A stretch of DNA of 27,966 nt. It comes from Nitrospinota bacterium (GTDB lineage: Bacteria; Nitrospinota; Nitrospinia; Nitrospinales; VA-1). Shown piece by piece: positions 3,140-18,113 of this stretch. The position numbers and the translations under genes are program-made. The stretch covers positions 1 through 27,966 of the forward strand of contig PCCT01000065.1 of NCBI GenBank assembly GCA_002731985.1, written 5' to 3'. Numbering within the stretch: position 1 is the stretch's first letter; every line of letters begins with the position of its first letter. The notes beneath the pieces were generated by a model. That model saw only the letters and a program-made list of their open reading frames with translations, did not search any database and was not told the DNA's origin.

Positions 3140-3772
3140 TTACCTCCTAACTGCGAACAACCAGCTCAATCCGCAACCAATCAGTCCAAGCAGCAGTGCC
3201 AGGACCAGCCGGGGATCACCAAGATAATTAAACGGATCAACAGGAAACGCGATAGTCTTGACCATCGCCGCCACCTTGAACTCGTGTCTGCCAGCAAAGG
3301 CCGGATTAGTACCAATTTCCAGCAGATCCCGACGACTGCGATAACGCACCCCGGCACCAGCACTCCATATCTCCATCCCATCGGCGTTCATGATATCCAT
3401 CGCAGGTGACACGGCCGACCCGCGAAACACAGGGTGGCTCGCCTGGGACAGCATCGCCGGGAACATGTATTCCATGTACTTGGCGAGCACATCGTCGGTC
3501 GTGTCATCCGGCGCCACACCATCAATCTGCAGGGGTGTGTCGTGCAGGTGAATGACGTTGATCATGACAAAATCATCGCCAGTATCCTCCTCCATGAAGG
3601 CTCGAATTCTGGCCAGGTCCTCGGCCGATGAATCCGGATCTCGTGCCTCGGACAATTCCAGATAATGATCTATCTCCGCCTCGGTCAGTGGTCCCTCAAA
3701 GGAGGTATACCAGCTGAAAAACGCCAGGTAGATCACAGCAACGATAAGCCACGTCCATCTTATTGCGGTCAT
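3140..3772 (-). CDS. Membrane-tethered DUF1330-like protein of unknown function
   Basis: The chosen start gives 210 residues and follows GAAGGAG. A longer in-frame start at 3886 would overlap the upstream gene by about 95 bases and is unlikely. Residues 5-21 and 187-207 are hydrophobic helices at the two ends, so the middle domain is probably exposed on one side of the inner membrane. The domain (about 65-180) has FVMINVIHL, a central Tyr-rich helix and a block with YRSRRDLLEI, NPAFAGRHEF and KTIAFPVDP. It resembles a dimeric alpha/beta-barrel of the DUF1330/EthD type, similar to the second half of the neighbour at 3792-4637. I know no defined function. It sits between that protein and the sulfatase in the operon. 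Confidence 0.72.
   Translation of the reverse strand: MTAIRWTWLIVAVIYLAFFSWYTSFEGPLTEAEIDHYLELSEARDPDSSAEDLARIRAFMEEDTGDDFVMINVIHLHDTPLQIDGVAPDDTTDDVLAKYMEYMFPAMLSQASHPVFRGSAVSPAMDIMNADGMEIWSAGAGVRYRSRRDLLEIGTNPAFAGRHEFKVAAMVKTIAFPVDPFNYLGDPRLVLALLLGLIGCGLSWLFAVRR
3143..3148 (-). promoter_or_regulatory. Ribosome binding site of the sulfatase inside the upstream gene
   Basis: AGGAGG is five bases before the sulfatase ATG (3137-3135). It is also the Arg-Arg codon pair that ends the upstream membrane protein, directly before its TAA stop (3142-3140). This fixes the sulfatase start and suggests coupled translation of the two genes. Confidence 0.8.
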
Positions 3773-3791
3773 GTTTTTTCTCCTTCCTTCT

Positions 3792-4637
3792 TTATTCCTC
3801 AGCAATTGGTTGCGTCGCAACGAGTCGCGTGCGCGCCAGGCCCGCTTGTCGATACACATGGGCAGCGCGATACGCCGGTTGGGCATACATTGTCATCAAG
3901 GCCGGGATCGACGGATAGGTCGCGATGGCGATTTCATGCCACTGCCCATCATCGGTACCCGATAACGGTTCCACGGGGGTGCTTCTCCAGGCAACCCGCC
4001 CATCCACTGCAGCCAGGGATGTGGCCATTCTCTTGCCGTATTCGCCGTAGGCTTCGGCCCCTGAGATCGGCTCGGCGGGAGCATCTTCTGCATGGACCTC
4101 GAAGTTGGCCTCCTCGGTATACTCAAGAAAGTTCAGCATCCAGATGGGCTGGTTGTTACTGAGCTCGAGCTGTTCTGTCCAGTTGCCCTCGTAGATGCCG
4201 ACCCCCTGCACAATATCCGCAGTTGCTATCAGGGACTGGATTTGCTGTTGGTCTTCACTTGTTGGTACGGCAGCGCGATTAAACAGTCCCAGCGTAAAGA
4301 GCACCGCGCTATTGATCTTCAATGCAAACGGCATAATCGGCTGCGTGGCATAGGTTCGGTGTGCGAACTGATCCGCCCATTTTTTGCGAGCGGCGAAGGC
4401 GGTTTCTCCAGCCTCCGTTGTCGGATACCAGGTTATAACCAGCAAATCGGTCGCACGATCGGCCTCCAATGCCCGCTCATCGGGAATAACCATTGGCGGG
4501 AGTACTCTGTTTGCCAGCGCCATGCGTCCGCCGACGTCTTTGGCCAGCTGTGTAGCCTTTGTAACAAAGTCGCGCTGCACCGCGGGTGTCTTTGCTTCGA
4601 CCAGGTCAAGCAGCGCATAGGGTGTTGGCCTTGTCAT
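3792..4637 (-). CDS. Two-domain DUF1330-like alpha/beta-barrel protein
   Basis: This 281-residue, apparently soluble protein seems to contain two ferredoxin-like halves. The second (about 160-275) has the DUF1330 pattern: a strand PIWMLNFLEY, then GAEAYGEYGKRM, then a strand with the HEIAIATYPS stretch and a final helix ending in YRAAHVYRQAG. The first half has a similar but weaker pattern. Such domains often form dimeric barrels that bind small aromatic or lipophilic molecules, and some act as isomerases or monooxygenase-like enzymes. No catalytic residue can be named here. Its ATG overlaps the stop of the upstream dehalogenase (ATGA, 4634-4637), so the two are translationally coupled and probably act together. 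Confidence 0.75.
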   Translation of the reverse strand: MTRPTPYALLDLVEAKTPAVQRDFVTKATQLAKDVGGRMALANRVLPPMVIPDERALEADRATDLLVITWYPTTEAGETAFAARKKWADQFAHRTYATQPIMPFALKINSAVLFTLGLFNRAAVPTSEDQQQIQSLIATADIVQGVGIYEGNWTEQLELSNNQPIWMLNFLEYTEEANFEVHAEDAPAEPISGAEAYGEYGKRMATSLAAVDGRVAWRSTPVEPLSGTDDGQWHEIAIATYPSIPALMTMYAQPAYRAAHVYRQAGLARTRLVATQPIAEE

Positions 4638-5677
4638 ACTTGTGTCAGTTGACTATCAATGAACTTGACCAGTCGCCTGGCTACCTCTTCGCCCTTGCTC
4701 TCCTGGATAAAGTGGCCTGCGGGCAAGCGGTCATGGGGCTGGCCTTTGGCACCCGGTATGTTGTCGATCAATTTGTCCTGCACTTTCTTCTGACCAATCA
4801 GGGGATCGAACTCGCCAAAGACGGTCAGGAACGGCTTGTCAAAACGCTTTATCTTCTCCCAGGCGGCAAGCGCTCTCTCTACGTCGATCAGTGAAGCCAT
4901 GGACGGGAGCGCACGTATGGCCGTGCGGTACTCGGGACCGGGATAGGGGGCGTCATAGGCAGCTATCTCTCCATCGCTGAGGGAGACACCGGCATCCGCG
5001 ATAAGATTTTCGCTGGGTTTGAAATCCGGCATGGTGAGTGCGTACTCCATCCATTTCTGAAAGAAGCCTGACATGTCTTCGCCCATCAGCGGCTGGACCA
5101 TCCCCAGAAAGTCCGCGAAATTCCTGATCTCCGCGTCATTGTCTACCGGGTAGTCATCCCGGTTGAGCCCCATGGTTAAATTGAAGTGGGGTTCAGGCGT
5201 GTAAGTCAGGGAACCATTCGACGCCATGGCGGATTTGAAGTACTCGGGATGTTCCGCAAGTTCTGTCAGACCAATCATGCCGCCCCAGTCCTGACAAAAC
5301 AGCGTGACCTCCTTCAGGCCAAGTTGTTCGATAAACTCATTCAACCAATCGGTATGTTGCTCCACCGTATGAATGTGAATATTGGTTGGTTTGTCGGAAC
5401 GACCCATACCGATGAGATCAGGTGCGATGGCGCGATATCCAGCATCAACGATAATCGGGATCATCTTGCGATAGAGATAGCTCCAGTCCGGCTGACCATG
5501 CAGAAGCAGCACGGGAAGCCCATCCCGCGGACCTTCATCAACATAGTGCTGCCGCCAACCACCCACTTCGACATAGTTGGGCTGATAGGGAAAGTCCGGG
5601 AGGTTTTCAAAACACTCATCCGGGATTCTAACGAATTCCTCTCCGTTGGCATTTAGAATTATGTTCTGCTTCGTCAT
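4634..5677 (-). CDS. Haloalkane dehalogenase (alpha/beta-hydrolase, HLD-I-like), left copy
   Basis: This 347-residue protein matches haloalkane dehalogenases, which cleave carbon-halogen bonds hydrolytically in the cytoplasm. The oxyanion region HGQPDWSYLYRK (60-71) closely follows the DhlA-type pattern. The nucleophile is D130 in CQDWGG, and the adjacent W131 fits the halide-stabilising Trp. The acid is probably D291 (FGEFDP) and the base H322 (GHFIQE). APDLIGMGRSDKP is at 85-97. The cap domain spans roughly 155-265. Length is slightly above the usual 300-310 residues. A second copy is at 14743-15819. An epoxide hydrolase or another alpha/beta-hydrolase activity cannot be excluded, but the Asp-Trp pair favours dehalogenation. 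A spacer of 73 bases separates it from the upstream GST-like gene. Confidence 0.87.
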   Translation of the reverse strand: MTKQNIILNANGEEFVRIPDECFENLPDFPYQPNYVEVGGWRQHYVDEGPRDGLPVLLLHGQPDWSYLYRKMIPIIVDAGYRAIAPDLIGMGRSDKPTNIHIHTVEQHTDWLNEFIEQLGLKEVTLFCQDWGGMIGLTELAEHPEYFKSAMASNGSLTYTPEPHFNLTMGLNRDDYPVDNDAEIRNFADFLGMVQPLMGEDMSGFFQKWMEYALTMPDFKPSENLIADAGVSLSDGEIAAYDAPYPGPEYRTAIRALPSMASLIDVERALAAWEKIKRFDKPFLTVFGEFDPLIGQKKVQDKLIDNIPGAKGQPHDRLPAGHFIQESKGEEVARRLVKFIDSQLTQV

Positions 5678-5750
5678 TGCTTTCCTCCTTTCGTCCTATA
5701 AGTGTCAATAAACAGCTAATCCGAATGTAAACGTCATCGCCCACGGGGGA

Positions 5751-6572
5751 TCACAACGGGTCGCCGCCGAGCACCGCAGGGCATTCGCAATAGGTCGTCA
5801 GAATAAACCGCTGATGGTCCTCGATCCGCTTCGTGAGGGCGCCGGCAATCGCCGGTATCTGGGAATTCGCCTCGAAGAACTTCCACATACCCTGGTTCTG
5901 CCGGGTCAGGGGCATGATCTCGGGTGGGGGTGGAAGCACGCTCATGCCGAGCGTAGCCCAGTAGATGTCAGCGGCCGAGAGCGCGTCGCCAACGAGATAA
6001 CTCGACCCGCGCTGCGTCTGAGCCTCGAGGCGCCGATCGAGCACGGTGATAATCTCGGCGATCTTACCCGGGGCCGCAGCACTCGCCTCTTCACTGTACC
6101 CGTATTTTCGCCCTAACGGGCCGTCGACCAGGATTCTCATGTTCCAGACCAGACCATCCTCCGCAAGTACGATGGCACATAGGCCGAAAACCTCGGCACG
6201 GAGTTCAAAGTTGTCTGGAATCAGAGTCGGAGTACCCGGTGCTCCAATGTGTTCAGCCAGCGCGAGCTGCTCTATCCAGACGTTCCTGGGCCGCTCCTCG
6301 TCGTGGAGCATCGTCGGTAAGCTCGTCTGTGCCGTGAGCTCGTAGAGCTTTGCCTGCCGATCTTTTCCCGTGGCTTCGTCGATGCCCATTCGAGGATGCA
6401 GCACTCGGATCAACGGCACGCCTTTCACAAAACAGATGTTCTTGAGGGCTTCCGCAAAGATGGCCGGAATTCCGGGCACAAAAGTCACCCGGGTGCCAGT
6501 GGTCATCGCTGCCGCTTCATCGAGCGTGATGAACTCGGGGGATTCCTGTTTTGTGGGCTCTTTTTTCGACAT
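5751..6572 (-). CDS. Divergent glutathione S-transferase-like protein
   Basis: The C-terminal half of this 273-residue protein shows the GST helical domain, with the N-capping box and hydrophobic-staple stretch LVGDALSAADIYWA at 193-206. The N-terminal half has a thioredoxin-like layout, with a strand around 28-33, a helix at 37-47 and a proline-preceded strand SLPTML (84-89). The usual catalytic Ser, Cys or Tyr motif near the first strand is not evident, and the region VPGIPAIFAEALKN replaces it. It may therefore be an atypical GST or a non-catalytic ligandin. The start follows AGGAG. It is flanked by the dehalogenase downstream and the six-cysteine protein upstream, an order echoed on the right arm. 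Confidence 0.78.
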   Translation of the reverse strand: MSKKEPTKQESPEFITLDEAAAMTTGTRVTFVPGIPAIFAEALKNICFVKGVPLIRVLHPRMGIDEATGKDRQAKLYELTAQTSLPTMLHDEERPRNVWIEQLALAEHIGAPGTPTLIPDNFELRAEVFGLCAIVLAEDGLVWNMRILVDGPLGRKYGYSEEASAAAPGKIAEIITVLDRRLEAQTQRGSSYLVGDALSAADIYWATLGMSVLPPPPEIMPLTRQNQGMWKFFEANSQIPAIAGALTKRIEDHQRFILTTYCECPAVLGGDPL

Positions 6573-6596
6573 GGGGGGCGCTCCTTTTCTTGCTCG

Positions 6597-7214
6597 TTAC
6601 GTTTCGTCCGGGTATTGGCAGATTCTCTGAGTACGGGTTTCGGTACCGTCTATAAACGTGAAGATCATCTCTTCGTCGCGCATTTCCCGGAATACGGTAT
6701 CGAAGAGGTCGAACAATCTGAAGACCATGACACCCTCGTCATCGAAGTGAATGGCGGTGTTGAAGTTGTTGCATACCGCACCCACATCTCTCGCACCATT
6801 TTTCAAGGTGCCGTCAACACGAAAGTCATGGAGGATGCCAAACGCTGTCACCACCACCCGATTGCCACACTGCTCTATACGTTCGAGATGCCCAACTCGA
6901 CCTGAAACCCCTAGCCAGAGCCCTCTCATGTCGACAACTCCCTCTGCGAGCGATTCGGTGCACTCGGCCAAAACAGGCATGGGTATGGTTGTGTAGCTGC
7001 ACCCGGGCGTATACGCCTTGGTAATCTCGTTAGCGGATTTTCCCGAGCCATCAAGGTCGGGTAGGTCACAATAGTTTACGGACCTGCCATCTTGTAGAAA
7101 TATCGCGGGATCGGTTGTGTCGGCAGGCCTTGGCAGTACAAAAGCGTAGAACAACAAGCCGCTCACCAGGACAGCCACAAAGCCGAGCAACCATTTTGCG
7201 ATACTCAGGATCAT
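6597..7214 (-). CDS. Six-cysteine membrane-anchored protein of unknown function, left copy
   Basis: Residues 8-27 of this 205-residue protein form an N-terminal transmembrane helix or uncleaved signal, followed by a Pro-rich LPRPADTT. The rest is predicted extracytoplasmic. Six cysteines (C49, C72, C85, C116, C148, C199) match in order and spacing those of the paralogue at 13990-14643, suggesting up to three disulfides. Shared blocks are VNYCDLPDLDGSG, YTPGCSYT, DMRGLW and ERIEQCGNRVVVTA. The alternating hydrophobic strands from 95 onward resemble a lipocalin-like beta-barrel, but I cannot assign a family. The gene starts just after the stop of the GST at 7218, with weak binding-site signals, so coupling is likely. 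Confidence 0.75.
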   Translation of the reverse strand: MILSIAKWLLGFVAVLVSGLLFYAFVLPRPADTTDPAIFLQDGRSVNYCDLPDLDGSGKSANEITKAYTPGCSYTTIPMPVLAECTESLAEGVVDMRGLWLGVSGRVGHLERIEQCGNRVVVTAFGILHDFRVDGTLKNGARDVGAVCNNFNTAIHFDDEGVMVFRLFDLFDTVFREMRDEEMIFTFIDGTETRTQRICQYPDET

Positions 7215-7217
7215 TAT

Positions 7218-7907
7218 TCAGGCATCACCAGTGGCTTCAGGTCTGAAACGAGCAAACTCGCCCTCGAGATCAGCCTTGACGATGGGGGCGTAGCAGGGCT
7301 GCGCATGAATGCGTTGGATGTAACTCGCTAACTCTGGCCAGCGAGCCGCGTCTACTGTCTCTCCTGCCAGCGCGAAGTTAACGAACGGGCTCGCGATGGC
7401 GATGTCGGCGATCGAGAATTTATCACCGACCATGAACTCATCGTCTCCGAGACAATCAGCCAGGTAATCAAAGACCTTCGGCAGTGCTGAATCCAGCAGA
7501 TGCGTTACCAACTGCTGGTCGGTCTCCTGCTTGAACGCAGTCGGCCGTATAACCCGCTGGAAAAAGACGCCTGCGACAGTTTCCCCCACCTTGGTGTCGG
7601 CGTATTCCTCGAACCAGAGTGCACGTGCTCGTGGGCCAGCTGCGCCAGGCAGGAGCGGCGGGTCTGGATAGCGATACTCAAGGTAGCTCAGGATCACGGA
7701 TGAATCCGGCAGAATGAGTTCTCCTTCTTCCCAGCAGGGAATCTTGGACAATGGGCTCTTCGCAATAAATTCCTCCGGCGCGCCGAACGGGCTCTGCTGG
7801 GTGTTGCCGTACTCGATACCCTTGTAGGCGAGCGCTACCCGGACCTTGCGGACGTAGGGAGAGATGTTGGCACCGTGGAGGATGGGCAGGGATTCACTAT
7901 TGGTCAT
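7218..7907 (-). CDS. Glutathione S-transferase
   Basis: This 229-residue protein has both canonical GST domains. The N-terminal thioredoxin-like domain has the active-site region GANISPYVRKVR (12-23), with S16 as the likely catalytic residue. KIPCWEEG provides the cis-Pro and LPDSSVILSYLEYRYP the glutathione gamma-glutamyl site. The C-terminal domain carries the N-capping box in MVGDKFSIADIAIA. Family members conjugate glutathione to electrophiles or remove halogen reductively, either of which would fit the dehalogenase context. The start is preceded by GAGAGGAAG. It is the most canonical of the four complete GST-type genes in the operon. Confidence 0.92.
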   Translation of the reverse strand: MTNSESLPILHGANISPYVRKVRVALAYKGIEYGNTQQSPFGAPEEFIAKSPLSKIPCWEEGELILPDSSVILSYLEYRYPDPPLLPGAAGPRARALWFEEYADTKVGETVAGVFFQRVIRPTAFKQETDQQLVTHLLDSALPKVFDYLADCLGDDEFMVGDKFSIADIAIASPFVNFALAGETVDAARWPELASYIQRIHAQPCYAPIVKADLEGEFARFRPEATGDA

Positions 7908-7928
7908 TTGTTCTTCCTCTCAGATTTT

Positions 7929-8360
7929 TTACGGTAGGTTTGCAACCGAAGAATTGTAGACAGTCTCAATATTGAGCTGTCCTTCAAGCCCGGCTTCGCG
8001 ATGCACTGCCATGGCCCGCCATTCTTCTGACGATGTCATCGCGGCCATGGCAGCCCTATTCGGATACTCTGCCAGGGCGATTTCGTCCCAAAGGTCGTCC
8101 ACAAGTCCCACGGCGAGCCCTGTAACATCGGCGCTGAAAAAAATCCGTCCTTCAAATTCCTGGATCAGTTGAATGACGGCTCTGCTGTAGATGTCATACG
8201 CTTCCCGTCCGGTCAGGTCGGTTTCCCGGCCATCCCTGTAGACTGCCTTGTCTTTGAACTTCAGCAAATTAACCATCACGATGGGGCCGTCGGGGCCTGG
8301 CCCCATCATTTTTTCCATCTGGCCTGGCTCGGTCGGGTAAATTTGGTTGGTTACTTCCAT
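7929..8360 (-). CDS. DUF1330 family protein
   Basis: This 143-residue single-domain protein matches DUF1330, a dimeric alpha/beta-barrel family. Typical features are the first strand PIVMVNLLKFKD (25-36), GREAYDIYSRAV in the following helix, and the DEIALAEYPNRAAM segment ahead of the final helix (EEWRAMAVHREAGL). The family has no uniform function; known relatives of the fold bind hydrophobic ligands or act on aromatic and quinone-like substrates. The start follows AGGAG. It lies between two GST genes in the operon, and two further DUF1330-like proteins are encoded downstream. Confidence 0.87.
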   Translation of the reverse strand: MEVTNQIYPTEPGQMEKMMGPGPDGPIVMVNLLKFKDKAVYRDGRETDLTGREAYDIYSRAVIQLIQEFEGRIFFSADVTGLAVGLVDDLWDEIALAEYPNRAAMAAMTSSEEWRAMAVHREAGLEGQLNIETVYNSSVANLP

Positions 8361-8407
8361 CTTGATCTCCTGTGCCGTGTTGATCGTGTAAGTGATTGGT
8401 CTTCGCG

Positions 8408-9553
8408 CTAGTTTCTCGGCTGGCCGAGAACTACCCCCAGAAAGCTGGACTTATAAGAATCTTCCGGTGTTGGGTCTCGGGGTAGCTCAAACTGGTGCGC
8501 TATGTTGGAATCGATAATGCCATCGGCATGCAGGGCTTCCAGGCCACCACAGGGTTCAAACAGTTCATCAACGCGTTGCTGATCCTGACTGCTCAGCTTT
8601 CCGAACTCCTCCTGCAACACCTGGCGACAGTACACCCGGTAGTGAGTGGTCTTGGTGTTGTTAAAGGTGAAGGTATCGCCCACATGGTCAAATCGCTGTT
8701 TTCCGTCGCGGAATGCCAACGCATTCTGGTGCAGATAGGGGAGATAATCCCTGGCAACCCGCCCTAGCAAAGGCAACCAGTACCCGGCTTCGGGCCAAAG
8801 CCACTGTTGTTCTGCGGGCAAGCGATGACGCTTCGCATTCCACATTCGCGCTACCCATTCGGTAGTACTGGGGCCGTGTGTACGCATTACGGCAAGCGGT
8901 TCAGGCTCATGGCAGAAATGATTAAGGAATGGGCCGATATAACCGAAGTCGGCGGCGGAGGGATGGCTGCCCAACAGAAAAGGTTGTTCTTCCAACAGGG
9001 GTTCCAGAAATGCCAGTTCGCGAAACAGCATGTCGCGCACATCGCCAGAGTTAGCCTCGGTCATGCCGTCGTCCCAGAGCCATTCCCTGCGTTGTCGGCG
9101 GCCAAACATAAAGCCAGCAAACCGGCGCAATGGCCGAGGCACACCACCTTCGGTTGTTATCAGCCAGCCGGTGGCCCACCGTGCGGCCCGAGGCTCCCAG
9201 CGCCACCACATGGCCGGGCGCCAAAGCCACTCATCAGCGTAGTCCTCCAGCAGCAATGCGATGAATCGCAAAGCCGGGTCAGCAGGCAATATCGGGTTCT
9301 CTGGATAGTGTTGTTCAAACCACTGCAGCATTGTTGTGGTATCAAACAACCACTTATCATCGGCTGTGTTTACCGCCGGGACCTTGTAGAAGCCGGTCTT
9401 CTGCCTGATGGTGTTTAAGACCTGCGGGCTGGGAATGGTGGGCGTGTAAGGAATTCCTTTGTAACGCAGGTAGCTTTCCAGTTTGTTACTGCAAAGCGAG
9501 TAGTGGGGTACATACGCCGTATAAGGTGTATGGGTGTCAGTTGATCGAGTCAC
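8408..9553 (-). CDS. Large GST-like protein with C-terminal extension (A)
   Basis: At 381 residues this is much longer than a normal GST (about 200-230). The N-terminal domain begins with HYSLCSNKLESYLRYKGIPY (17-36), with a Ser or Cys in the usual catalytic place, then the Pro-containing FYKVPAVNT and a WLFDTTTMLQWF site. The helical domain starts with LLLEDYADEWLWRP and includes LLGSHPSAADFGYIGPF. About 100 further residues follow, matched by the neighbour at 9557-10609, so the two are paralogues sharing the extension. Translation begins at GTG (9553-9551), three bases after the TAG of the upstream gene, with no strong binding site of its own. The substrate is unknown. Confidence 0.83.
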   Translation of the reverse strand: MTRSTDTHTPYTAYVPHYSLCSNKLESYLRYKGIPYTPTIPSPQVLNTIRQKTGFYKVPAVNTADDKWLFDTTTMLQWFEQHYPENPILPADPALRFIALLLEDYADEWLWRPAMWWRWEPRAARWATGWLITTEGGVPRPLRRFAGFMFGRRQRREWLWDDGMTEANSGDVRDMLFRELAFLEPLLEEQPFLLGSHPSAADFGYIGPFLNHFCHEPEPLAVMRTHGPSTTEWVARMWNAKRHRLPAEQQWLWPEAGYWLPLLGRVARDYLPYLHQNALAFRDGKQRFDHVGDTFTFNNTKTTHYRVYCRQVLQEEFGKLSSQDQQRVDELFEPCGGLEALHADGIIDSNIAHQFELPRDPTPEDSYKSSFLGVVLGQPRN

Positions 9554-9556
9554 TGT

Positions 9557-10609
9557 CTACACCGACAACGCTGGCAACATGTACGCATCAAGCACACCCA
9601 ATGATCCGAGTACGTTATCTACCGCTGTTCGCTCATCAGGCGACAGCGCGACAATCTCGTTCCTGATATGGCGACGTGATACTTCATTGTATTTCAGGGA
9701 GCGCATTTTTATGGGACCGTCGCCAAGATCGAGCTCACACCACTTCTCACCGGCCGCGAGGGCTTCACGCGATACCTTCAGGAACTGATGATAGGTGTCG
9801 CGCATATGTGCAAAGAAGGGCATGAGGGTTTCCGGCAACTGATCATCCGGCAGGTAGTCATCATCGTCCGTCCGAGCATCAAAAACACGGTTCATGTAAT
9901 CGACCATCTCTGGCGCGCTGGCATCTATCCAACTGCGGGATTCGGGATCAACTTCGATGTGTGCCTTGAACAGACCCGCGAAGCTGAAATCACCCAGGCT
10001 GGCTCGATCTCCCAGGAGGAATCGGTGTTGATTGTAGTGGGATTCTGCATGCTTCATCAGCGATTCAAAGTCCTGGCGAACCGCCTCTGCCTGATCAGGG
10101 CCACAGCCACGATTGGCGCACGCGCGAAGTCCAAAATTGTCTCGCACCATCGTGATCATGTTGGCCGCTTCAACTTCCTCTTCGGGTGTGAGGCCTTCTG
10201 CTACGAACTTGCCGATGTGGTTGGCATAAAAGCCGTTCGCGACGTGCGCAATGTTATCGGGGTAACACCAGCGGCTGGTGATGGCATAACGACCGAACCA
10301 TTCATCCGCCCAGTCTTCCAGCAGGTGTGCCGCGATACGCTGTACCGCTGATGTTGGGAGTATCGGCCGGTCCGGATATTTCGTATGCAGCATCAGGCCG
10401 ATGGGTGTGGTGTCGTGGATGAACCAGCCCTCCGGAGTTTCCAGCCCAGGAATAAAGTGGGTACCCAGGCGCGCTTCCACGTCAGGTCCGGTTTCAGCCG
10501 ATTTCAGCTTGAACTCATAATCCAGTGCAAGGTAGTTCAGCATGGCCTGCAGCTTGCGGGTGAAGTAGCTGTGTTCTCCGCCCCAAAGAATATATTTACC
10601 ATCAAACAC
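9557..10609 (-). CDS. Large GST-like protein with C-terminal extension (B)
   Basis: This 350-residue paralogue of the protein at 8408-9553 shares the GST N-terminal fold (YILWGGEHSYFTRKLQAML), a WFIHDTTPIGLML site, the YPDRPILP stretch, LLEDWADEWFGRY and the helical-domain box FLLGDRASLGDFSF. A C-terminal extension of about 100 residues follows, as in its partner. The start is GTG (10609-10607), whose first G is the last base of the tetR stop TAG, with AAAGGA upstream. Two adjacent paralogues with the same non-standard length may form a heterodimer, but this is inference. Confidence 0.83.
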   Translation of the reverse strand: MFDGKYILWGGEHSYFTRKLQAMLNYLALDYEFKLKSAETGPDVEARLGTHFIPGLETPEGWFIHDTTPIGLMLHTKYPDRPILPTSAVQRIAAHLLEDWADEWFGRYAITSRWCYPDNIAHVANGFYANHIGKFVAEGLTPEEEVEAANMITMVRDNFGLRACANRGCGPDQAEAVRQDFESLMKHAESHYNQHRFLLGDRASLGDFSFAGLFKAHIEVDPESRSWIDASAPEMVDYMNRVFDARTDDDDYLPDDQLPETLMPFFAHMRDTYHQFLKVSREALAAGEKWCELDLGDGPIKMRSLKYNEVSRRHIRNEIVALSPDERTAVDNVLGSLGVLDAYMLPALSV

Positions 10610-11292
10610 TAGCTTTTCCTTTGATCAGTTATCCGTTTGCTTGCACCAACTTCCACGCCAACGGAGAGGCGATCGAGTGCAGCCTCGAACTGCCGCCGTG
10701 CTGCGGCGGTCAGATTCGGTAGGAGGACGGCGAAGTGGTGTTCCACACCCCGTCTCTGATCTTCCGCCGAGAATTCAACATGTCCTTCCGTTTCTCGCAG
10801 GTGGTCCAGCCAGAAACGGGTGACCATGAACAAGGCACGAGCCACAATCTGTAAGTCAGGCACAAACCCCTGCCTAATCATGGATGATCGTTTCATTTTC
10901 AGCAGACTGGCATGGATCTTCTCAATGTCAGCATTCATTGGCTGATTTTGCTGTGGACTGATGGCCTGGTCCTGGTACTGCGCATGATCTCGATAAAGGA
11001 ATCGATAATTCCACCAATCGCTGAGTCCAAACCAGATGGTTTCGACATAGGCGTCAACAAATGAGAATTCCCGCGCGCCCCCACTTCGCCTTTCCAATGC
11101 CTGGGCACGTGCCCGTTGTTCAAGTTCAAAAGCAAGGTCCTTTTTCGTCGCAAAGTGATAGGTGAGGTTGCCCTTGGCAATACCCACCTCTTTGGCGATG
11201 CCGGCAAGAGAAGTTGCGGCATATCCTTGCTCGTTAAAAAGCTTCAGGCTGACTTCAAGAATTCGCTCACGAGTTGTCAGGCGATTGTGCAT
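10609..11292 (-). CDS. TetR-family transcriptional regulator
   Basis: This 227-residue protein has an N-terminal TetR helix-turn-helix domain at about 6-53: TTRERILEVSLKLFNEQGY, then TSLAGIAKEVGIAKGNLTYHF with the recognition helix, and KKDLAFELE. The C-terminal ligand-binding domain is not assignable to a ligand. It is the first gene of the minus-strand operon and is divergent from the TonB-receptor gene, the usual place for a local repressor. A perfect 15-base inverted repeat lies between its likely promoter and its ribosome binding site (GGAG, six bases before ATG), suggesting autoregulation. It probably derepresses one or both arms when the substrate or a metabolite binds. Confidence 0.93.
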   Translation of the reverse strand: MHNRLTTRERILEVSLKLFNEQGYAATSLAGIAKEVGIAKGNLTYHFATKKDLAFELEQRARAQALERRSGGAREFSFVDAYVETIWFGLSDWWNYRFLYRDHAQYQDQAISPQQNQPMNADIEKIHASLLKMKRSSMIRQGFVPDLQIVARALFMVTRFWLDHLRETEGHVEFSAEDQRRGVEHHFAVLLPNLTAAARRQFEAALDRLSVGVEVGASKRITDQRKS

Positions 11293-11302
11293 GGGTTGCT
11301 CC

Positions 11303-11317
11303 GTTACTACGAGTAAC
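11303..11317. promoter_or_regulatory. Perfect inverted repeat before tetR, candidate operator
   Basis: GTTACT-ACG-AGTAAC is a perfect 6-3-6 inverted repeat 10 bases upstream of the tetR ATG, directly before its GGAG. TetR-family repressors usually bind palindromes of 15-20 bases in their own promoter region, so this is the best candidate autoregulatory site. I did not find a second copy in front of the receptor gene. Confidence 0.5.
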
Positions 11318-11441
11318 TATCTGGCGCCAAGAGGCTATTCCTTACTCCAGGGCCCAAGATCTAATTCTCACTCGAATGACCCTATTTGACCAACCTGCCT
11401 CCTGTTCTTGTTTACCATCCAAAAACCGGATCGTCAGGGTG

Positions 11442-11471
11442 TTGACCAGATTAGTACATTTGGCCTATTAT
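11442..11471 (+). promoter_or_regulatory. Probable sigma-70 promoter of the TonB-receptor arm
   Basis: TTGACC (11442-11447) and TATTAT (11466-11471) are separated by 18 bases and lie about 65 bases upstream of the receptor start codon. Each hexamer differs from consensus by one base. This is the best promoter match in the divergent intergenic region. Confidence 0.6.
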
Positions 11472-11487
11472 TAGGTATATCGTCCTA
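11464..11487. promoter_or_regulatory. Interlocked inverted repeats over the receptor -10 box
   Basis: CCTA-TTAT-TAGG (11464-11475) is a perfect inverted repeat overlapping the TATTAT -10 element. Its second arm is itself mirrored by CCTA at 11484-11487 after an eight-base spacer. A regulator bound here would block the polymerase. The half-site differs from the repeat next to tetR, so a second regulator is possible, or the match is chance in AT-rich sequence. Confidence 0.35.
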
Positions 11488-11535
11488 TTTTTCAATTACA
11501 AAACAAACAATGATCGATAAAAAGAGGGACTCACC

Positions 11536-13848
11536 ATGAAGAACTTGAAGGGCGTTGCTACATTCGTTCTGTTCGGAGTCAGCCCATGCATCAGCGCGGC
11601 CGCAACGGCAGACACGGAGTCGCGGGTTATCGAAGAAATTGTCGTCACCGCCCAGAAACGCGCGGAAAGCCTGCAGGAAGTACCCGTGGCGGTGAACGCT
11701 TTTACGGCCACGACGATTGAAGAGGCTGGCATTGGCGATGTAGCCGATCTGGCGAACATGACACCCAGCCTGGGCATCACATCCAACCTGAATCCATTTG
11801 CCACGCGGTTAATGATCCGCGGCGTGGGCACAACGCAGAACGATCCTGCACTTGAGCCTTCTGTTGGCCTGTTTATCGACGGCGTGTTCATGGGCCGCAC
11901 CGGCCTGGGTACAGGCGATCTCACCGATATCGAACGTATTGAAGTACTGCAGGGTCCCCAGGGCACACTCTATGGCAAGAACGCCAATGCCGGCGCCGTC
12001 AGTATCATTACCAGGCGTCCCAACCTGGAGCAGTTTGAGGGTTATGTTGAAGCGTCTGCCGGTGATTACAGCATGAACAAACTGACGGCAGCCGTTTCAG
12101 GGCCACTCTCTGACAACGTCGCTTTTCGACTGTCGGGAAATGTTCACGAGCGTGATGGCTATTACAATAACGCGGGTGTCGACGACCAGAGCGATGTCGA
12201 TGACTGGAACCTTCAGGGGAAACTCCTGTGGCAAGCGTCCGACGACCTCAGCTTTCTGCTACGCGCTGCACGTGTCGAACGTGATACGACCTGTTGTGGC
12301 GCTGATGCCACCCAGAGTCCGATTATGCAGCTTGTACTCGGTATGCAGGGTTTTGCGCCGGATGCAAACGACCCCTACGACTATGATGTGGCCACTAATT
12401 TTCAGGACGCCTTCAGTCAGGAATCTAACCTGGTGTCGCTACATATTGAATATGATCTCGGGTGGGCTTCCTTCACATCGATCACCGCCTGGAACGATTA
12501 CGAATACACCACCAGCACCGACCCTGATCGATCCCAGCTGGACATTTTGAGTATTGTTGATGAGTACTATGAAGGCGACAGTTTCTCGCAGGAACTGCGC
12601 CTGGATGGTTCAATCGCAGACAGCGTCGACTACCAGCTGGGATTGTTCTACTACGAGCAGACAACCCAACGTAGCGATGGTACCCCGTCCGTTTTCGTCG
12701 GCACCGATTTCATCACGGTTGCTGACCTCACCTTATTGCCGATTCTGCAAGCCATGGGCACGCCCTTACCGAGCATTGGTTTCATCGCTCAACCGGGAGA
12801 CTATGCCGCTTACCGGAACGCCTGGGAAAACGAGACCCTGGCGGTTTTCGGTCAGGCCACCTGGCACCTGAGCGAGCGCTGGCACCTGACGGGCGGCATA
12901 CGCTGGACAGACGAAGAAAGAGAGGCAGAGCTGTTCAGTGAGACCATCTCTACAGCCCCACTGGTGCAGTTAACCACTGCTCAGGCGATCATGGGAGGCG
13001 TTCCCCCGGAACAGGCCAGGATTATGGGCATGAGTGCTGCATTCCTCAGCGGGGCTGCCACGCCAATCAACACGACGCTAGACCGCAGCACTGATAATGT
13101 GGACTGGCTCATCAAGCTGGCATTCGATCTGAACGAAAGCAACATGATTTACGCGAGCGCCGCAACAGGACAAAAATCCGGCAACTTTAATGGCGTGGGC
13201 GGTCCGCCCAGCCAGCGTGAGTTCGATGATGAAGAAACCATCAGCTACGAACTGGGACTGAAATCCAGTCTGCTGGATTCAACCCTGCGACTGAATATTG
13301 CCGCCTTCTATTCCGAGATCGAGGACTATCAGTTCCAGGCACAGAATCCCGTCATTGGCACTTTTGTCAGCAACGACGGCGAGATAGAAGTATCCGGCGT
13401 GGACCTTCAGCTGGAAGCAGTGCCTCTGGATAACCTGACGCTGACGGCCGGTCTGCTCTACATGAGCGAATATGAGATCACAAAGGGACCAAGAAAGGGT
13501 GAGGACCTGCCCTATACGGCGGATCTAAGCGGTAACCTCGGTGCAACGCTGGTGTTTCCACTGGCAGACGGCAGCCTTTATTTGCGGGCTGACTACATCT
13601 TCATGGATGACCACCTCACTGGCTCGGCAACGAATGCTGTACCTGACAAGGACATCGACGATCGTGAGCTGTTGAACGTCCGGGTCGGCTGGCGCAACAA
13701 AAACTGGAACATCTCCATCTGGGGCAAGAACCTGACGGACGATGAATATGCGAGTTTTACGCCGGATACGAATCCCATTGGCTTCACGAGTGCCTATTTT
13801 CTCGCGCCGCCAAGAACCTATGGCGCGACATTGCGCTATGATTTCTAA
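11536..13848 (+). CDS. TonB-dependent outer-membrane receptor
   Basis: This 770-residue protein begins with a signal peptide of about 22-25 residues. IEEIVVTAQKR (32-42), the usual start of the plug in this receptor class, follows. The plug domain contains NMTPSLGI, MIRGVGTTQNDPALEPSVGLFIDGV and the IERIEVLQGPQGTLYGKNANAGAVSIIT block (each seen as shorter motifs in order). The beta-barrel runs to a C-terminal Phe in YGATLRYDF, the standard outer-membrane assembly signal. Such receptors import substrates beyond porin size, or hydrophobic ones. Being divergent from tetR and upstream of a dehalogenase, this one probably imports the substrate of the locus rather than iron. Nothing in the sequence identifies the ligand. 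It starts after AGAGGGAC. Confidence 0.94.
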   Translation: MKNLKGVATFVLFGVSPCISAAATADTESRVIEEIVVTAQKRAESLQEVPVAVNAFTATTIEEAGIGDVADLANMTPSLGITSNLNPFATRLMIRGVGTTQNDPALEPSVGLFIDGVFMGRTGLGTGDLTDIERIEVLQGPQGTLYGKNANAGAVSIITRRPNLEQFEGYVEASAGDYSMNKLTAAVSGPLSDNVAFRLSGNVHERDGYYNNAGVDDQSDVDDWNLQGKLLWQASDDLSFLLRAARVERDTTCCGADATQSPIMQLVLGMQGFAPDANDPYDYDVATNFQDAFSQESNLVSLHIEYDLGWASFTSITAWNDYEYTTSTDPDRSQLDILSIVDEYYEGDSFSQELRLDGSIADSVDYQLGLFYYEQTTQRSDGTPSVFVGTDFITVADLTLLPILQAMGTPLPSIGFIAQPGDYAAYRNAWENETLAVFGQATWHLSERWHLTGGIRWTDEEREAELFSETISTAPLVQLTTAQAIMGGVPPEQARIMGMSAAFLSGAATPINTTLDRSTDNVDWLIKLAFDLNESNMIYASAATGQKSGNFNGVGGPPSQREFDDEETISYELGLKSSLLDSTLRLNIAAFYSEIEDYQFQAQNPVIGTFVSNDGEIEVSGVDLQLEAVPLDNLTLTAGLLYMSEYEITKGPRKGEDLPYTADLSGNLGATLVFPLADGSLYLRADYIFMDDHLTGSATNAVPDKDIDDRELLNVRVGWRNKNWNISIWGKNLTDDEYASFTPDTNPIGFTSAYFLAPPRTYGATLRYDF

Positions 13849-13989
13849 GACATCAATGCCAGATGAGACTGGTATGGGATTGTAAGAATCAGATCGCGTC
13901 ATCGCACTTGATGCGAGGTGCACGGCAAAGTGATACTGCGGGGGCTCGCTGCAGGCTAGTAGTGGCCCATTAAATTCAGGAACTGAAAC

Positions 13990-14643
13990 ATGCGTAAGTT
14001 ACTGGTTGGGGTTACCGCTCTACTCTCACTGCCCCTGTGGCTGTTTTTGCTCGCATGGCTGTATCCGAGGCCGGTCGATACCACACCCGCCTGGGTCTTT
14101 GATGGCGACGGCACGGAGATCAATTACTGCGAGCTGCCGGTACTTGATGGCTCGGGCCTGACGTCAAAAGACATCCCGCAGGCCTTTACCCCGGGCTGCG
14201 GCTACACGGTCTTCCCAAAACCCATTCTGCAGGGCTGCACTGAGCCATTGCCCGAAGGCGCACAGGATATTCGTGGTCTGTGGCAGAGCGTTTCTCCGCA
14301 CATGCCGGACCACGTCGAGCGTGTTGAACAGTGTGGTGACCGTGTTGTCGTCACAGCTCACGGTCTTATCCATGATCATTCACCCGACATGCTGTCGAAC
14401 GACGTTTCGCCAAGACAGATCGGTCCTTTCCTGTTTTGCCTGCGCATGTCCCAGGCAACTGCGGTATGGAAAGACAATCAGCTTAACCAGAAGCTTTTTG
14501 GCGGTCCTACTGTCGTGAAACGCTACATCGAGGAGGGCGTGTACAGGTGGGAATACCCGGGAAACGGCATGGTCAAAATGAAGCGCATCTGTAAACTACC
14601 GGAACACGCAAAAACGTCACCAGACCGCAGCCACGCGCTCTAG
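13990..14643 (+). CDS. Six-cysteine membrane-anchored protein of unknown function, right copy
   Basis: This 217-residue paralogue of the protein at 6597-7214 has an N-terminal hydrophobic segment (about 5-24) followed by YPRPVDTT. The conserved blocks are INYCELPVLDGSG, FTPGCGYT, DIRGLW and HVERVEQCGDRVVVTA. Cysteines C47, C70, C83, C115, C150 and C201 align with those of the left copy. The two diverge in the last third, where this one has extra charged and aromatic residues. Predicted location is the periplasm, tethered to the inner membrane. It follows the receptor gene by about 140 bases in the same direction and could act in transfer or binding of the imported compound. That role is inference; I do not recognise the family. 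Confidence 0.75.
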   Translation: MRKLLVGVTALLSLPLWLFLLAWLYPRPVDTTPAWVFDGDGTEINYCELPVLDGSGLTSKDIPQAFTPGCGYTVFPKPILQGCTEPLPEGAQDIRGLWQSVSPHMPDHVERVEQCGDRVVVTAHGLIHDHSPDMLSNDVSPRQIGPFLFCLRMSQATAVWKDNQLNQKLFGGPTVVKRYIEEGVYRWEYPGNGMVKMKRICKLPEHAKTSPDRSHAL

Positions 14644-14677
14644 GGTCAAACCGTAATATCGAATGAGGACAAATGGT

Positions 14678-14746
14678 ATGACACTCACACAACCCCTGCG
14701 CCTCATGGGCGCACCAGGCTCACCCTACACGCGGAGAATGCGATGA
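14678..14746 (+). pseudogene. GST gene stump (22 codons) in front of the dehalogenase
   Basis: An ORF with its own GAGGAC binding site begins at ATG 14678 and encodes LRLMGAPGSPYTRRM among its 22 residues. This is the start of a GST-type thioredoxin domain: first strand, then a catalytic-type Ser-Pro-Tyr loop and the following basic helix. It stops at TGA 14744-14746, overlapping the dehalogenase ATG (14743-14745). The rest of the GST is missing, so an internal deletion probably removed it. The remnant may still be translated and couple to the dehalogenase. It could alternatively be a purpose-built leader peptide, but the GST resemblance argues against that. Confidence 0.6.
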
Positions 14747-15819
14747 AGATTCTGCGAACTCCCGATGCCTGTTTCGAGAATCTGAAGGACTATCCGTTCG
14801 AGCCTCATTACACCAACATCAAAACTGAAGACGGCGATGAACTGCGTATCCATCACATTGACGAAGGTCCGACCGATGGTCCGTTAGTACTCTGCATGCA
14901 TGGCCAGCCCGTGTGGAGTTATCTGTATCGGAAAGTGATTCCTTACCTGAATAAGGCCGGAATGCGCGTGATTGCACCGGACCTGGTGGGCTACGGTAAA
15001 TCCGACAAACCTGCTGCGAGAGAAGACTACAGTTATGAGCGTCAGGTGACTTGGATGGGCGCCTGGCTTGAGGCGAACGACTTTAAAGGCATCACTTTCT
15101 TCGGCCAGGACTGGGGCGGGTTGATCGGGTTACGCCTGATCGTTAATCACCCTGATCGATTTGACCGTGTGGTCATCTCCAATACCGGCCTGCCTCATAA
15201 CCCCGATGTGCCCGACGATATCATCAGGCAGGTGGAGGATTTTCGCGCAAATGCACCCACGCCCAGCCTCATGGCCATGCAGAAGGCCCTCAGTGCTATG
15301 GGGGATAGTGGACATTTCGCGACTCAATTCGCTTATTGGCAGAAGTTCTGCTGGGAAAACGAGGATATGCCCATCGGCTTCATGATGAGCATGACTATGG
15401 AAGCGCGATCGAGCCTGGCCAGCGCATTGAAGTTTTTCCTGCACGATCTTGGCGTACACTCACCATTTCCGACGCCACTTGCCAGAGCCTATGACGCGCC
15501 CTTCCCCGATCCCAGTTTCAAGATGGGGCCGCGGGCGATGCCAAGCCAGGTGCCGTCACTGCCGACTTCGCCCTCGCTACAGCAGCAGGAAAAAGCCTGG
15601 GAGTTTTTCGAGGCGTTTGACAAACCATTTCTTTGTGCGTTTGCTGATAACGATCCGGTTTCTGCTGGTGCGGAGCAAGAATTCCTGAACCACGTACCCG
15701 GCACCAATGGGTTGCCGCACACAACGATCAAGGGCGGGGGTCATTTCGTGCAGGAGAATGCGCCTGACCAGGTCGCCGGCGTCATCATCGACCTGATTCG
15801 ATCAACTCAGGGAGACTAA
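14743..15819 (+). CDS. Haloalkane dehalogenase (alpha/beta-hydrolase, HLD-I-like), right copy
   Basis: This 358-residue second dehalogenase shares the architecture of the one at 4634-5677. HGQPVWSYLYRK is at 53-64 and APDLVGYGKSDKP at 78-90. The nucleophile is D123 in GQDWGG with the halide-type W124. The likely acid is D304 (FADNDP) and the base H334 (GGGHFVQE). The cap region (about 150-270) differs clearly from the left copy and includes a Met-rich stretch around 213-220, so the substrate pocket is probably different. The ATG overlaps the stop of the GST stump (ATGA), indicating coupled translation. It belongs to the plus-strand arm led by the TonB receptor. Confidence 0.87.
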   Translation: MKILRTPDACFENLKDYPFEPHYTNIKTEDGDELRIHHIDEGPTDGPLVLCMHGQPVWSYLYRKVIPYLNKAGMRVIAPDLVGYGKSDKPAAREDYSYERQVTWMGAWLEANDFKGITFFGQDWGGLIGLRLIVNHPDRFDRVVISNTGLPHNPDVPDDIIRQVEDFRANAPTPSLMAMQKALSAMGDSGHFATQFAYWQKFCWENEDMPIGFMMSMTMEARSSLASALKFFLHDLGVHSPFPTPLARAYDAPFPDPSFKMGPRAMPSQVPSLPTSPSLQQQEKAWEFFEAFDKPFLCAFADNDPVSAGAEQEFLNHVPGTNGLPHTTIKGGGHFVQENAPDQVAGVIIDLIRSTQGD

Positions 15820-15878: not shown

Positions 15879-15936
15879 CGTTGCACTCAGATGCCCGAGT
15901 AAAAAGTGCAAGTAATAACTGGGTTTGTTGTCGATC

Positions 15937-16341
15937 ATGACACAACACATTAGGAACCCTGGTCAGCTAAAGAATTTCGGGCCACGCTATGTCGTCTTTC
16001 TGCTTTTTCTTGCCTATGCATTCAGCTTTGTAGATCGACAGATTCTATCAATCCTGTTCGAGCCCATTAAGGCTGAGTTTGACCTTAGCGATACACAGCT
16101 TGGCTTTCTTGGCGGCATCGCTTTCGCACTCACCTACTCGATCCTGGGTGTCCCTCTTGCCATGCTTGCAGACAGGCGTGGCAGAAAAGGGATCATTACT
16201 GCTTCTCTTGCCATTTTCTCTATCATGACAGCCTTTTGCGGCGCAGCAGGCAGCTTTGCAACGCTTGCTTTAGCTCGAATTGGCGTGGGAATCGGTGAGG
16301 CAGGTGTCAACCCCTCCAGTTCATCCATGATCGCCGACTGA
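15937..16341 (+). pseudogene. Truncated MFS transporter (N-terminal third)
   Basis: Starting at ATG 15937 this frame encodes 134 residues of the MFS N-terminus: a first helix with FAYxFSFVDRQ-like sequence (LAYAFSFVDRQIL), LGFLGGIAFALTYSILGVPLAMLADRRGRK with the family loop 2-3 signature, and ARIGVGIGEAGVNPSS at the fourth helix. It ends at TGA right after SSSMIAD, where full-length relatives continue for about 300 more residues. Only about four of twelve helices remain, so transport function is lost. Its top similarity in layout is to sphingolipid-transporter/spinster-like MFS proteins common next to catabolic genes. The gene is terminal in the receptor arm, and the break is 240 bases from tRNA-His. 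Confidence 0.82.
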
Positions 16342-16462: not shown

Positions 16463-16581
16463 CTCCTGAACAAGGGGTCCGGCAGTCACGGCAGGTAACT
16501 GTATAAACTACTGTATATTACCTTTATATTACCTTTTGGCGTTTTTGTGGGTGACTACTCACGCTACACACCTACGGCAAA

Positions 16582-16723: not shown

Positions 16724-16870
16724 CTCAAGCCAACAGTCCCCACCTGATTCCTTAGATACCAGCAGGCAGAGCGCGCGCGAGCACCAGCTTTGACCAGCAC
16801 CCCAATCAAGGATACAGTGCGCTCCGGGGAAACATGTTTGGTTCCACTTGAATGTAGAGAAGGGAAATAT

Positions 16871-18052
16871 ATGTACAGTTTGCTCACGGGAATTCGCGTG
16901 CTGGATTTTTCAGCATATGTCACTGATGTAGTAGGGTGTCACTTCGCCGACATGGGGGCTGAGGTCATCAAGGTTGAACCACCGGGACGTGGTTCCCTGT
17001 CACGCCTGGTTGAGCCGTACGTGATGCACCTGGCGCGTAATAAAAAGAGCCTCGCAATCAACCTGAAGGACGATGAGGCGAAAGCAGTCCTCGCCCGGCT
17101 GGTAAAAGAATCCGACGTCATTATCGATGCCCTGCGTTCCGGTGCGCTTGATGAACTGGGTTTTGGCTATGAAGATGTCTGCAAGCTCAACCCGAAGATC
17201 GTCTACCTTTCCGTTTCTGGCTGGGGACAAACTGGACCCTACCGACGCCTGCCCAGTCACGGTCAGTCCTTCGATACCTTTTCATCCGTAGAGCCGATAT
17301 CCTTTGAGGGCGGCGAGCCACAAAGCGTATTCAACTCAGCACACGAACTGGCGGGTCAGATGGGCTGCTCATTCGGTGTGATAGCAGCCTTGTCTGCCAT
17401 CATTAACATGCACAAAACCGGCAAGGGCGCTCATATAGATGTGAGCGAAGGCGAAGCCGGCGCCTGGTATTTTTGGTCTTCTGCCTATGACCTGTTAAAC
17501 AAGCCGGAGGAGGAGCGCAAGTTCATACCACCCAGTATCAAACAGGAAGATGCACGCACCCGCTATCGCGTCTATCCAACAAAGGATGGCTCTGCCGTCT
17601 TTCTCCAGGCCCTCGAGAAGAAATTCTGGGTAAACTTCTGCAATGCCATTGAGCGGCCTGACCTGGCTGAACGAGGCGACTGGAAATGGGGCCTCGATGC
17701 CGGTGCCTATGAAGGTGAATACGAGGAGTTGATTGAAATCTTCAAAACCAAATCACAGCAGGAGTGGATTGAGATTTTTATCGAACATGATGTTGCAGGC
17801 GGGCCAACCAACAGTCTGGTGAACCTGCTGAAGGATCCGCACTTTCTATCCCGCGAACCCTACGTTGAGGTAGACGATTTCAATACCGGCGAAAAACGGA
17901 AAATGCTGGGGATACCCGTCAAGATTAAAGGTGCTGAATTCAAACCAAACAACCCCCCCGCTTTAGGCAGAGATACCGACGAGTTGCTGAAGCAGGTTGG
18001 TTACAGTGAAAGCGAGGTGAAGGCATTTCATGAGAAAGGTCTGGTTCAATAG
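16871..18052 (+). CDS. Family III CoA-transferase-like protein (CaiB/BaiF)
   Basis: With the start at ATG 16871 (after AGAAGGGA) the protein has 393 residues. An earlier in-frame TTG at 16790 lacks a binding site. Family features are LTGIRVLDFSAYVTDVVG (5-22), the FADMGAEVIKVEPPGRG nucleotide-binding stretch (25-41), NKKSLAINLKDDEA (57-70), SGWGQTGPYRRLPSHG and the GKGAHIDVSEGEAG block. Family members move CoA between carboxylic acids or, as racemases, act on acyl-CoAs. At the position where the family usually has its catalytic Asp before a Gly-rich helix, I see AHELAGQMG (157-165). It is followed by an acyl-CoA ligase, so it probably acts on an acyl-CoA. Confidence 0.87.
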   Translation: MYSLLTGIRVLDFSAYVTDVVGCHFADMGAEVIKVEPPGRGSLSRLVEPYVMHLARNKKSLAINLKDDEAKAVLARLVKESDVIIDALRSGALDELGFGYEDVCKLNPKIVYLSVSGWGQTGPYRRLPSHGQSFDTFSSVEPISFEGGEPQSVFNSAHELAGQMGCSFGVIAALSAIINMHKTGKGAHIDVSEGEAGAWYFWSSAYDLLNKPEEERKFIPPSIKQEDARTRYRVYPTKDGSAVFLQALEKKFWVNFCNAIERPDLAERGDWKWGLDAGAYEGEYEELIEIFKTKSQQEWIEIFIEHDVAGGPTNSLVNLLKDPHFLSREPYVEVDDFNTGEKRKMLGIPVKIKGAEFKPNNPPALGRDTDELLKQVGYSESEVKAFHEKGLVQ

Positions 18053-18113
18053 CCGGGAACATTGATGAGTCAGTGCCGCGTCCTCAGGAATACTCTAATT
18101 GAGTCAGGTCGAT

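Follow-up and report, generated by a model that had tools for sequence, protein, structure and literature searches.

The question raised by contig PCCT01000065.1, binned in a metagenome-assembled genome (MAG) of a Nitrospinota bacterium, is why two gene arms diverging from one regulator and one receptor carry the same three kinds of genes. The window analysed here is this entire contig of 27,966 bases (C65); the MAG amounts to 1.58 Mb and is 65 % complete. An earlier note on this DNA had read in both arms the order six-cysteine protein (here CYS6), glutathione S-transferase (GST)-type gene, haloalkane dehalogenase (HLD), and had seen in it a functional unit that was duplicated or assembled twice. 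The open reading frames (ORFs) lie where the note placed them and the order holds in both arms, the right GST being a remnant of 22 codons. Of the two origins proposed, assembly by shuffling is the better half. We consider it on balance probable that shuffling built this region and that it represents a recurring kind of catabolic island, serving the breakdown of lipophilic, sulfated, halogenated compounds. The islands are found in marine Gammaproteobacteria and some Alphaproteobacteria and vary in gene order and completeness. Their parts are a sulfatase, an HLD-I dehalogenase (mostly with the motif HGQP), one to several GSTs, DUF1330-like proteins, a TetR regulator, acyl-CoA enzymes, CYS6 and often a TonB-dependent receptor.

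The association of CYS6 with HLDs was followed in two genome families, that of Pseudohalioglobus sediminis (G074; 140 genomes) and that of the MAG G064 (150 genomes drawn from a larger group). In the G074 family 58 genomes carry CYS6, 86 carry HLDs recognised by NCBIfam NF002043 and 46 carry both (two-sided p 3.7e-4), and the corresponding numbers in the G064 family are 67, 86 and 57 (one-sided p 2.8e-10). The genes are also close to each other. HLDs lie within 5 kb, and equally within 10 kb, of 18 of the 62 CYS6 matches in the G074 family, with none at 5-26 kb and 0.46 expected within 10 kb. In the G064 family they lie within 5 kb of 30 and within 10 kb of 31 of the 83 matches, the expectation being 0.6 if a mean genome of 3.7 Mb is assumed. 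These matches are not independent events, as some genomes have at least two and one split gene was counted twice (G381). Two of 21 genomes in the family of Spongiibacter thalassae (G075) have CYS6, with HLDs 10.8 and 12.0 kb downstream, beyond the 10 kb limit. An HLD over the cut-off was present somewhere in 31 of 34 further CYS6 genomes reached via the loci (13 of 16, not in G060, G061 and G066, and 18 of 18), some of which also belong to the G074 or G064 families. Further examples come from alphaproteobacterial MAGs, and in the cultured P. sediminis CYS6 is situated 3 kb from an HGQP dehalogenase. The link of an uncharacterised six-cysteine family to dehalogenases and GSTs, which the earlier note had proposed to check by co-occurrence, is thus supported in both families and in alphaproteobacterial MAGs.

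We mapped the neighbours of CYS6 in 140 loci, comprising 80 of at least 410 confirmed stretches from named genomes, 59 of the 62 matches of the G074 family (partly overlapping with the former; the other three were not fetched) and the window. Five loci had no CYS6 in the ORF calls and were dropped (L030, L041, L086, L186 and L228); the set held 111 distinct CYS6 proteins in 107 loci. The controls were 40 stretches of 20 kb from 20 genomes, all of the G074 family, and one of them that contains an HLD (L247) was kept. GSTs were near CYS6 in 69/107 loci versus 3/40 controls, sulfatases in 44 versus 4, homologues of the protein U248 in 32 versus 2 and TonB receptors in 28 versus 6. HLDs were counted in 31 versus 1 under strict rules and in 44 versus 5 under lax ones. 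After thinning to less than 75 % CYS6 identity (n = 37), GSTs remained in 24 loci, sulfatases in 16, HLDs in 11 and U248 in 8. The sulfatase cluster comprises 44 proteins; 31 of them carry the motif C-x-[PA]-S-R, and the others include fragments. The order varies, e.g. sulfatase-TetR-HLD-GST-CYS6 in L063 (Rhodobiaceae), HLD-CYS6-DUF1330-U248-GST-GST-HLD in L200 and CYS6-x-sulfatase-HLD-x-U248-GST in L185. The strict HLD count omits hydrolases of the GHDWGA type and still includes the alphaproteobacterial L055, L058, L063 and L074, whose HDWGG/HGNP motifs presumably place them near HLD-II, the subfamily of DbjA. As candidate dehalogenases we rejected L016, L023, L029, L030 and L036, which show the GHDWGA-type motifs of other alpha/beta hydrolases.

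The HLD-I-like identity given to the two window enzymes, HLD_L in the left and HLD_R in the right arm, was confirmed. They score 318.5 and 382.4 bits against an NF002043 cut-off of 265, and we take HLD-I to be the subfamily name for dehalogenases of this type. The catalytic residues of such enzymes are a nucleophile Asp followed by Trp, a Trp in the cap, an acid Asp and a His. Both window enzymes keep all of them in an alignment with the CYS6-linked HLDs, from which alone the cap Trp was assigned. Around the nucleophile, the acid and the His, solved structures could be aligned as well, 5esr and 6f9o with HLD_R and 4mj3 and 6f9o with HLD_L. Fold and catalytic residues are therefore common to the window enzymes and the classical HLD-I (PDB 5esr, 6f9o, 4mj3, 1b6g). 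The classical members carry HGEP, whereas both window enzymes carry HGQP, a variation inside the family that we do not take as exclusion. HLD_R differs from the solved enzymes by a cap insertion of about 50 residues, and both window enzymes by their setting in islands with sulfatases and GSTs.

HGQP is present in 27 of 33 CYS6-linked HLDs, HGNP in 5 and HGEP in 1. Within the fetched set, linkage to CYS6 was seen for 27/54 HGQP, 5/6 HGNP and 1/21 HGEP enzymes; this set covers 81 of 86 rows, with L029, L030, L036, L137 and the second L191 enzyme left out of both the motif count and the HLD tree. In 20 flanked loci with no CYS6 in the stretch, a sulfatase was near 5 of 10 HGQP and 0 of 10 HGEP enzymes. 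L281 and L286 hold most of the island, and in the genome of L286 (G188) CYS6 is located about 28.5 kb away.

In the window, the left arm reads as follows, outwards from the regulator:

10609..11292, minus strand: TetR-family regulator
9557..10609, minus strand: GST350, a long GST of 350 residues
8408..9553, minus strand: GST381, a long GST of 381 residues that clusters with the full homologue of the right-arm remnant
7929..8360, minus strand: DUF1330 protein (DUF1330a)
7218..7907, minus strand: GST229, a GST of 229 residues
6597..7214, minus strand: CYS6_L, the second CYS6, of a separate old subfamily
5751..6572, minus strand: GST-like protein of 273 residues with a weak match to the GST C-terminal domain, below cut-offs
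4634..5677, minus strand: HLD_L, HLD-I type dehalogenase with HGQP motif and D130-W131
3792..4637, minus strand: DUF1330 protein (DUF1330b), its start overlapping the HLD_L stop
3140..3886, minus strand: U248, predicted to have a dimeric alpha/beta-barrel (ferredoxin-like) domain flanked by seemingly membrane-spanning helices
1452..3137, minus strand: type I sulfatase with a putative N-terminal hydrophobic anchor and the formylglycine-type motif C-x-P-S-R
beyond the sulfatase, outermost of the genes listed here: zinc alcohol dehydrogenase

The right arm reads:

11536..13848, plus strand: TonB-dependent receptor
13990..14643, plus strand: CYS6_R, an N-terminal helix (putative membrane anchor) and a predicted ten-strand barrel, with six conserved Cys
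14678..14746, plus strand: 22-codon remnant of a GST of about 340 residues, its stop overlapping the HLD_R start
14743..15819, plus strand: HLD_R, HLD-I type dehalogenase with a cap insertion of about 50 residues, HGQP motif and D123-W124
15925..16341, plus strand: truncated MFS transporter of 138 residues (435 residues in L014)
16582-16657, minus strand: tRNA-His
16790..18052, plus strand: CoA-transferase family III
18099..19823, plus strand: AMP-binding enzyme of the acyl-CoA synthetase type
after the AMP-binding enzyme: Na-solute symporter, then S15-type hydrolase

The description of the arms as mirrored is right for the order and leaves out three more GSTs, two DUF1330 genes and the sulfatase on the left. 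This sulfatase qualifies as type I (formylglycine) by its score with Pfam PF00884 (195.8 bits, cut-off 25) together with C-x-P-S-R; the stretch around the motif is NATCAPSRAALLTG. An open frame of 498 residues antisense to it (1629-3125) is probably a side effect of codon usage. The same contig encodes a sulfotransferase-family protein (25920-26807) and a cytochrome b561 (26848-27504). An inverted repeat of at least 7 was sought as TetR operator in 11285-11545 and none was found.

Could one CYS6-GST-HLD unit have been duplicated whole and mirrored around the regulator and receptor? The identical order in both arms would fit, as would the presence of both CYS6 types together in L012, L013, L014 and the window. 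We regard this as very improbable, and on the HLD and CYS6 trees and the GST families we rejected duplication of a three-gene unit. The paralogue pairs were placed apart, the outcome that the earlier note had named as refuting, and the congruent paralogue trees that it looked for were not obtained. HLD_L and HLD_R are 34 % identical and fall in separate clades of an 81-protein tree. HLD_R belongs to a fully supported clade with the enzymes of L014 (locus L123) and L120, mostly of about 355-360 residues. HLD_L joins two longer HLDs of 583 and 630 residues (support 99/97) on a long branch that leaves its exact position unsure, and most CYS6-linked HLDs of the G074 family are in another clade, where the HLD of L012 is placed too. 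The two CYS6 proteins are homologous, as had been claimed (40 % identity over 187 residues, E 2e-46). In the 113-protein tree, CYS6_L groups with its counterparts in L012, L013 and L014, next to L089, P0107 and P0108, and this group is set apart from all other CYS6 proteins, CYS6_R included (support 100/99). The nearest relative, L014 (MAG CPC316, record NYVG01000014.1, genome G064), has in common with the window, at 77-91 % identity, the sulfatase, U248, DUF1330b, the 273-residue protein, CYS6_L, GST229, TetR, the receptor, CYS6_R, HLD_R and the start of the MFS gene. L014 has no HLD between DUF1330b and the 273-residue gene, and no GST381, GST350 or DUF1330a between GST229 and TetR; a stretch resembling DUF1330a (56 %) is found on the far side of its sulfatase. 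Genome G064 carries CYS6 of both types, yet just two of its HLDs pass the cut-off, namely HLD_R and a second on a different contig. The left arm holds neither of them. In L012 both CYS6 genes are adjacent and the one HLD, on the strand of CYS6_R, is of a third type. In L013, which also carries the two CYS6 genes, the 20.7 kb examined contain no strict HLD, its HLD_R-like gene sitting elsewhere beside a sulfatase and U248. The order speaks against a duplicated unit as well. Among 37 HLD-CYS6 pairs, 22 have the HLD upstream of CYS6 on the same strand. Three have it downstream on that strand, and these belong to the window and L014, the only two of the 107 loci with same-strand CYS6 followed by HLD. 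A further genome of the G064-family set, G297, has an HLD 57 bp downstream of CYS6 on the same strand, too close for an intervening GST. Judged from these trees, the CYS6 pair is old and was retained together in at least four genomes while the HLDs were exchanged.

The GSTs complete this picture. With its 22 codons the remnant is not a complete GST; it codes for a GST-like N-terminus, and its TGA stop overlaps the ATG of HLD_R. L014 has at this place, with nearly the same start, a full GST of 342 residues between CYS6 and HLD. The HLD begins 65 nt after the GST start in the window and 1025 nt after it in L014. The full GST matches GST381 (26 % identity, E 2e-28) and GST350 (E 3e-16). At E <= 10 it does not match the left gene 5751-6572, which itself matches GST C-terminal models alone, weakly and below cut-offs. 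By itself the remnant peptide is too short to tell, with a score of 34 for GST229 and of 23-24 for the three remaining window GSTs. On sequence grounds the left and right GSTs, which the earlier note had treated as counterparts, appear to be of different families, and the third pair of the module would not exist at the family level. It is quite possible, though we lean against it, that the remnant results from faulty assembly of a gene that is complete in the true genome: the contig comes from a fragmented MAG and looks mis-binned, and in L014 the part missing here is bordered by short matches, but the remnant retains the frame and the stop/start overlap with HLD_R. Past the stop of the 138-residue MFS gene the DNA lacks a long open frame up to the tRNA-His, and 15925-16657 is a possible recombination or assembly junction.

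The host of the island is a separate matter. CYS6 was absent from all 59 other genomes sampled around the window's MAG. The GC content of the window is 53.5 %, versus 42.4-50.3 % in 20 sampled contigs of the 114 in the MAG. Its thirds agree in tetranucleotides at 0.72-0.80. Of the 20 contigs, 18 reach 0.82-0.96 and two are at 0.59-0.65; C100 (L110) and C10 (L094) are sampled contigs with odd tetranucleotides. Probably the contig belongs to a relative of L010-L014 and was mis-binned, or it was acquired. Either way the anatomy of the island is unaffected.

CYS6 had no Pfam or NCBIfam match at E <= 0.1. Its six cysteines do not vary in either of two alignments, one of 30 and one of 68 sequences. 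The predicted structure has an N-terminal helix and a ten-strand barrel (residues ~90-203), with a modest Foldseek match to lipid-binding proteins (best E 2.4e-3). CYS6 is therefore predicted to be a membrane-anchored barrel resembling the intracellular lipid-binding proteins (FABP, CRBP, liver bile-acid-binding protein). The likeness is one of fold, as sequence gives no family match, and unlike the FABP/CRBP kind CYS6 has the helix, an N-terminal region of about 65 residues and the six cysteines. G064 has four CYS6 matches, three of them on one contig. The most frequent direct neighbour of CYS6 is DUF2855 (13 upstream and 11 downstream of 111 anchors); it occurs in 29 of 107 loci (e.g. L050, L069), 4 of them with an HLD, and these loci are a second type of island, mostly without HLD. 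Directly upstream of CYS6 we also found a DUF3604 protein (L013, 8090-9952), a protein of the same cluster (L015, 8108-9973) and a tannase-family protein (L010), and a PQQ dehydrogenase is located beside CYS6_L in L013. As for the long HLD-type proteins of 583 and 630 residues (L200, 5658-7409; L138, 644-2536), they have about 200 extra C-terminal residues. The former has a lipoprotein-like start, which suggests an exported dehalogenase.

The analysis shows the order of the genes, the statistics of their co-location, the catalytic residues, the fold predictions and the positions in the trees; from here on we infer where in the cell the proteins act, what the substrate is, that CYS6 binds and how the steps follow one another. 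The receptor would admit a lipophilic, sulfated, aliphatically halogenated natural compound, and the anchored sulfatase would strip the sulfate in the periplasm. There the anchored, probably disulfide-locked CYS6 barrel may bind or pass on the lipophilic product. In the cytoplasm, HLD would convert the alkyl halide to alcohol and halide, GSTs would remove halogens by glutathione displacement, and the CoA enzymes would break down the chain. CYS6 would thus be a periplasmic accessory of a shuffled catabolic island, whose substrate is best read as sulfated and lipophilic and is probably halogenated.

Several points weigh against the halogenated-compound island. The sulfatase, U248 and GST models were built from CYS6 neighbourhoods, so the contrast with controls is somewhat flattered, and the linkage count of HGQP and HGEP depends partly on which unlinked loci were fetched. 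A sulfatase alone is weak evidence, since 139 of 140 G074-family genomes have at least one and many at least 10 (scoring stops at about 15). GSTs outnumber HLDs as neighbours and CYS6 occurs without HLD too. These last counts would suit CYS6 as a general accessory of catabolic islands for lipophilic or phenolic compounds, with HLD as one link of several in shared hotspots for accessory genes, and so would its proximity to DUF2855, enoyl-CoA hydratase, DUF3604 and tannase genes. We hold this to be rather unlikely, as HLDs on shared contigs are mostly within 5 kb of CYS6 or far off, different HLD clades recur beside it, and several HLDs overlap it or lie less than 70 bp away on the same strand (gaps depend on start calls). 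The HGQP enzymes could instead keep the HLD fold and cut another bond (ester, epoxide or lactone), in islands unrelated to halogens. The change from HGEP and the cap insertion of HLD_R would agree with that, but the conserved catalytic residues of both window enzymes and the NF002043 scores make it distinctly unlikely.

The favoured reading, an island for lipophilic, sulfated, halogenated compounds, has partial parallels. In the flavobacterium Zobellia, an HLD-type gene (ZGAL_234) and a TetR gene lie in an algal-compound locus beside a kappa-carrageenase, like the window's HLD and TetR, and the enzyme is thought to meet algal halogenated compounds; it is 40 % identical to DbjA, and the sections of the source at hand do not mention CYS6 or long GSTs (PMC5613140). 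Single-cell genomes of marine Desulfatiglans combine dehalogenation and sulfatases, as the islands do, but those sediment bacteria have reductive dehalogenases and the sections at hand make no claim of co-location (PMC6129605). Among the open-access matches listed we found no paper tying the CYS6, HLD, sulfatase and GST families together and none on HLD in Halieaceae, and none of them had HLD, sulfatase, GST and Halieaceae all together. As far as the literature searched shows, a catabolic gene cluster of this kind is known, and the combination and the CYS6 family are undescribed.

Chlorosulfolipids with up to 11 chlorines are reported, in the part of the source at hand, from coastal seawater during blooms (PMC13413282), and no bacterial route for them was found among the open-access matches listed. 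It is a speculative and rather improbable suggestion that the islands are such a route, for these or similar sulfated polyhalogenated algal lipids, with the sulfatase, HGQP dehalogenases and long GSTs taking apart the head and the chlorine groups of the lipid and CYS6 carrying it. If true, it would give a branch of haloalkane dehalogenases a natural substrate class. In the part at hand, a review points out that HLDs occur widely in organisms without past exposure to synthetic organohalogens, which suggests natural halogenated compounds (PMC6299022). For the natural substrates of HLDs, the sulfatase-bearing neighbourhood narrows the search to sulfated lipophilic organohalides. The islands name the unstudied CYS6 family as a partner of HLDs, a role that is testable because the cultured P. 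sediminis carries both genes.

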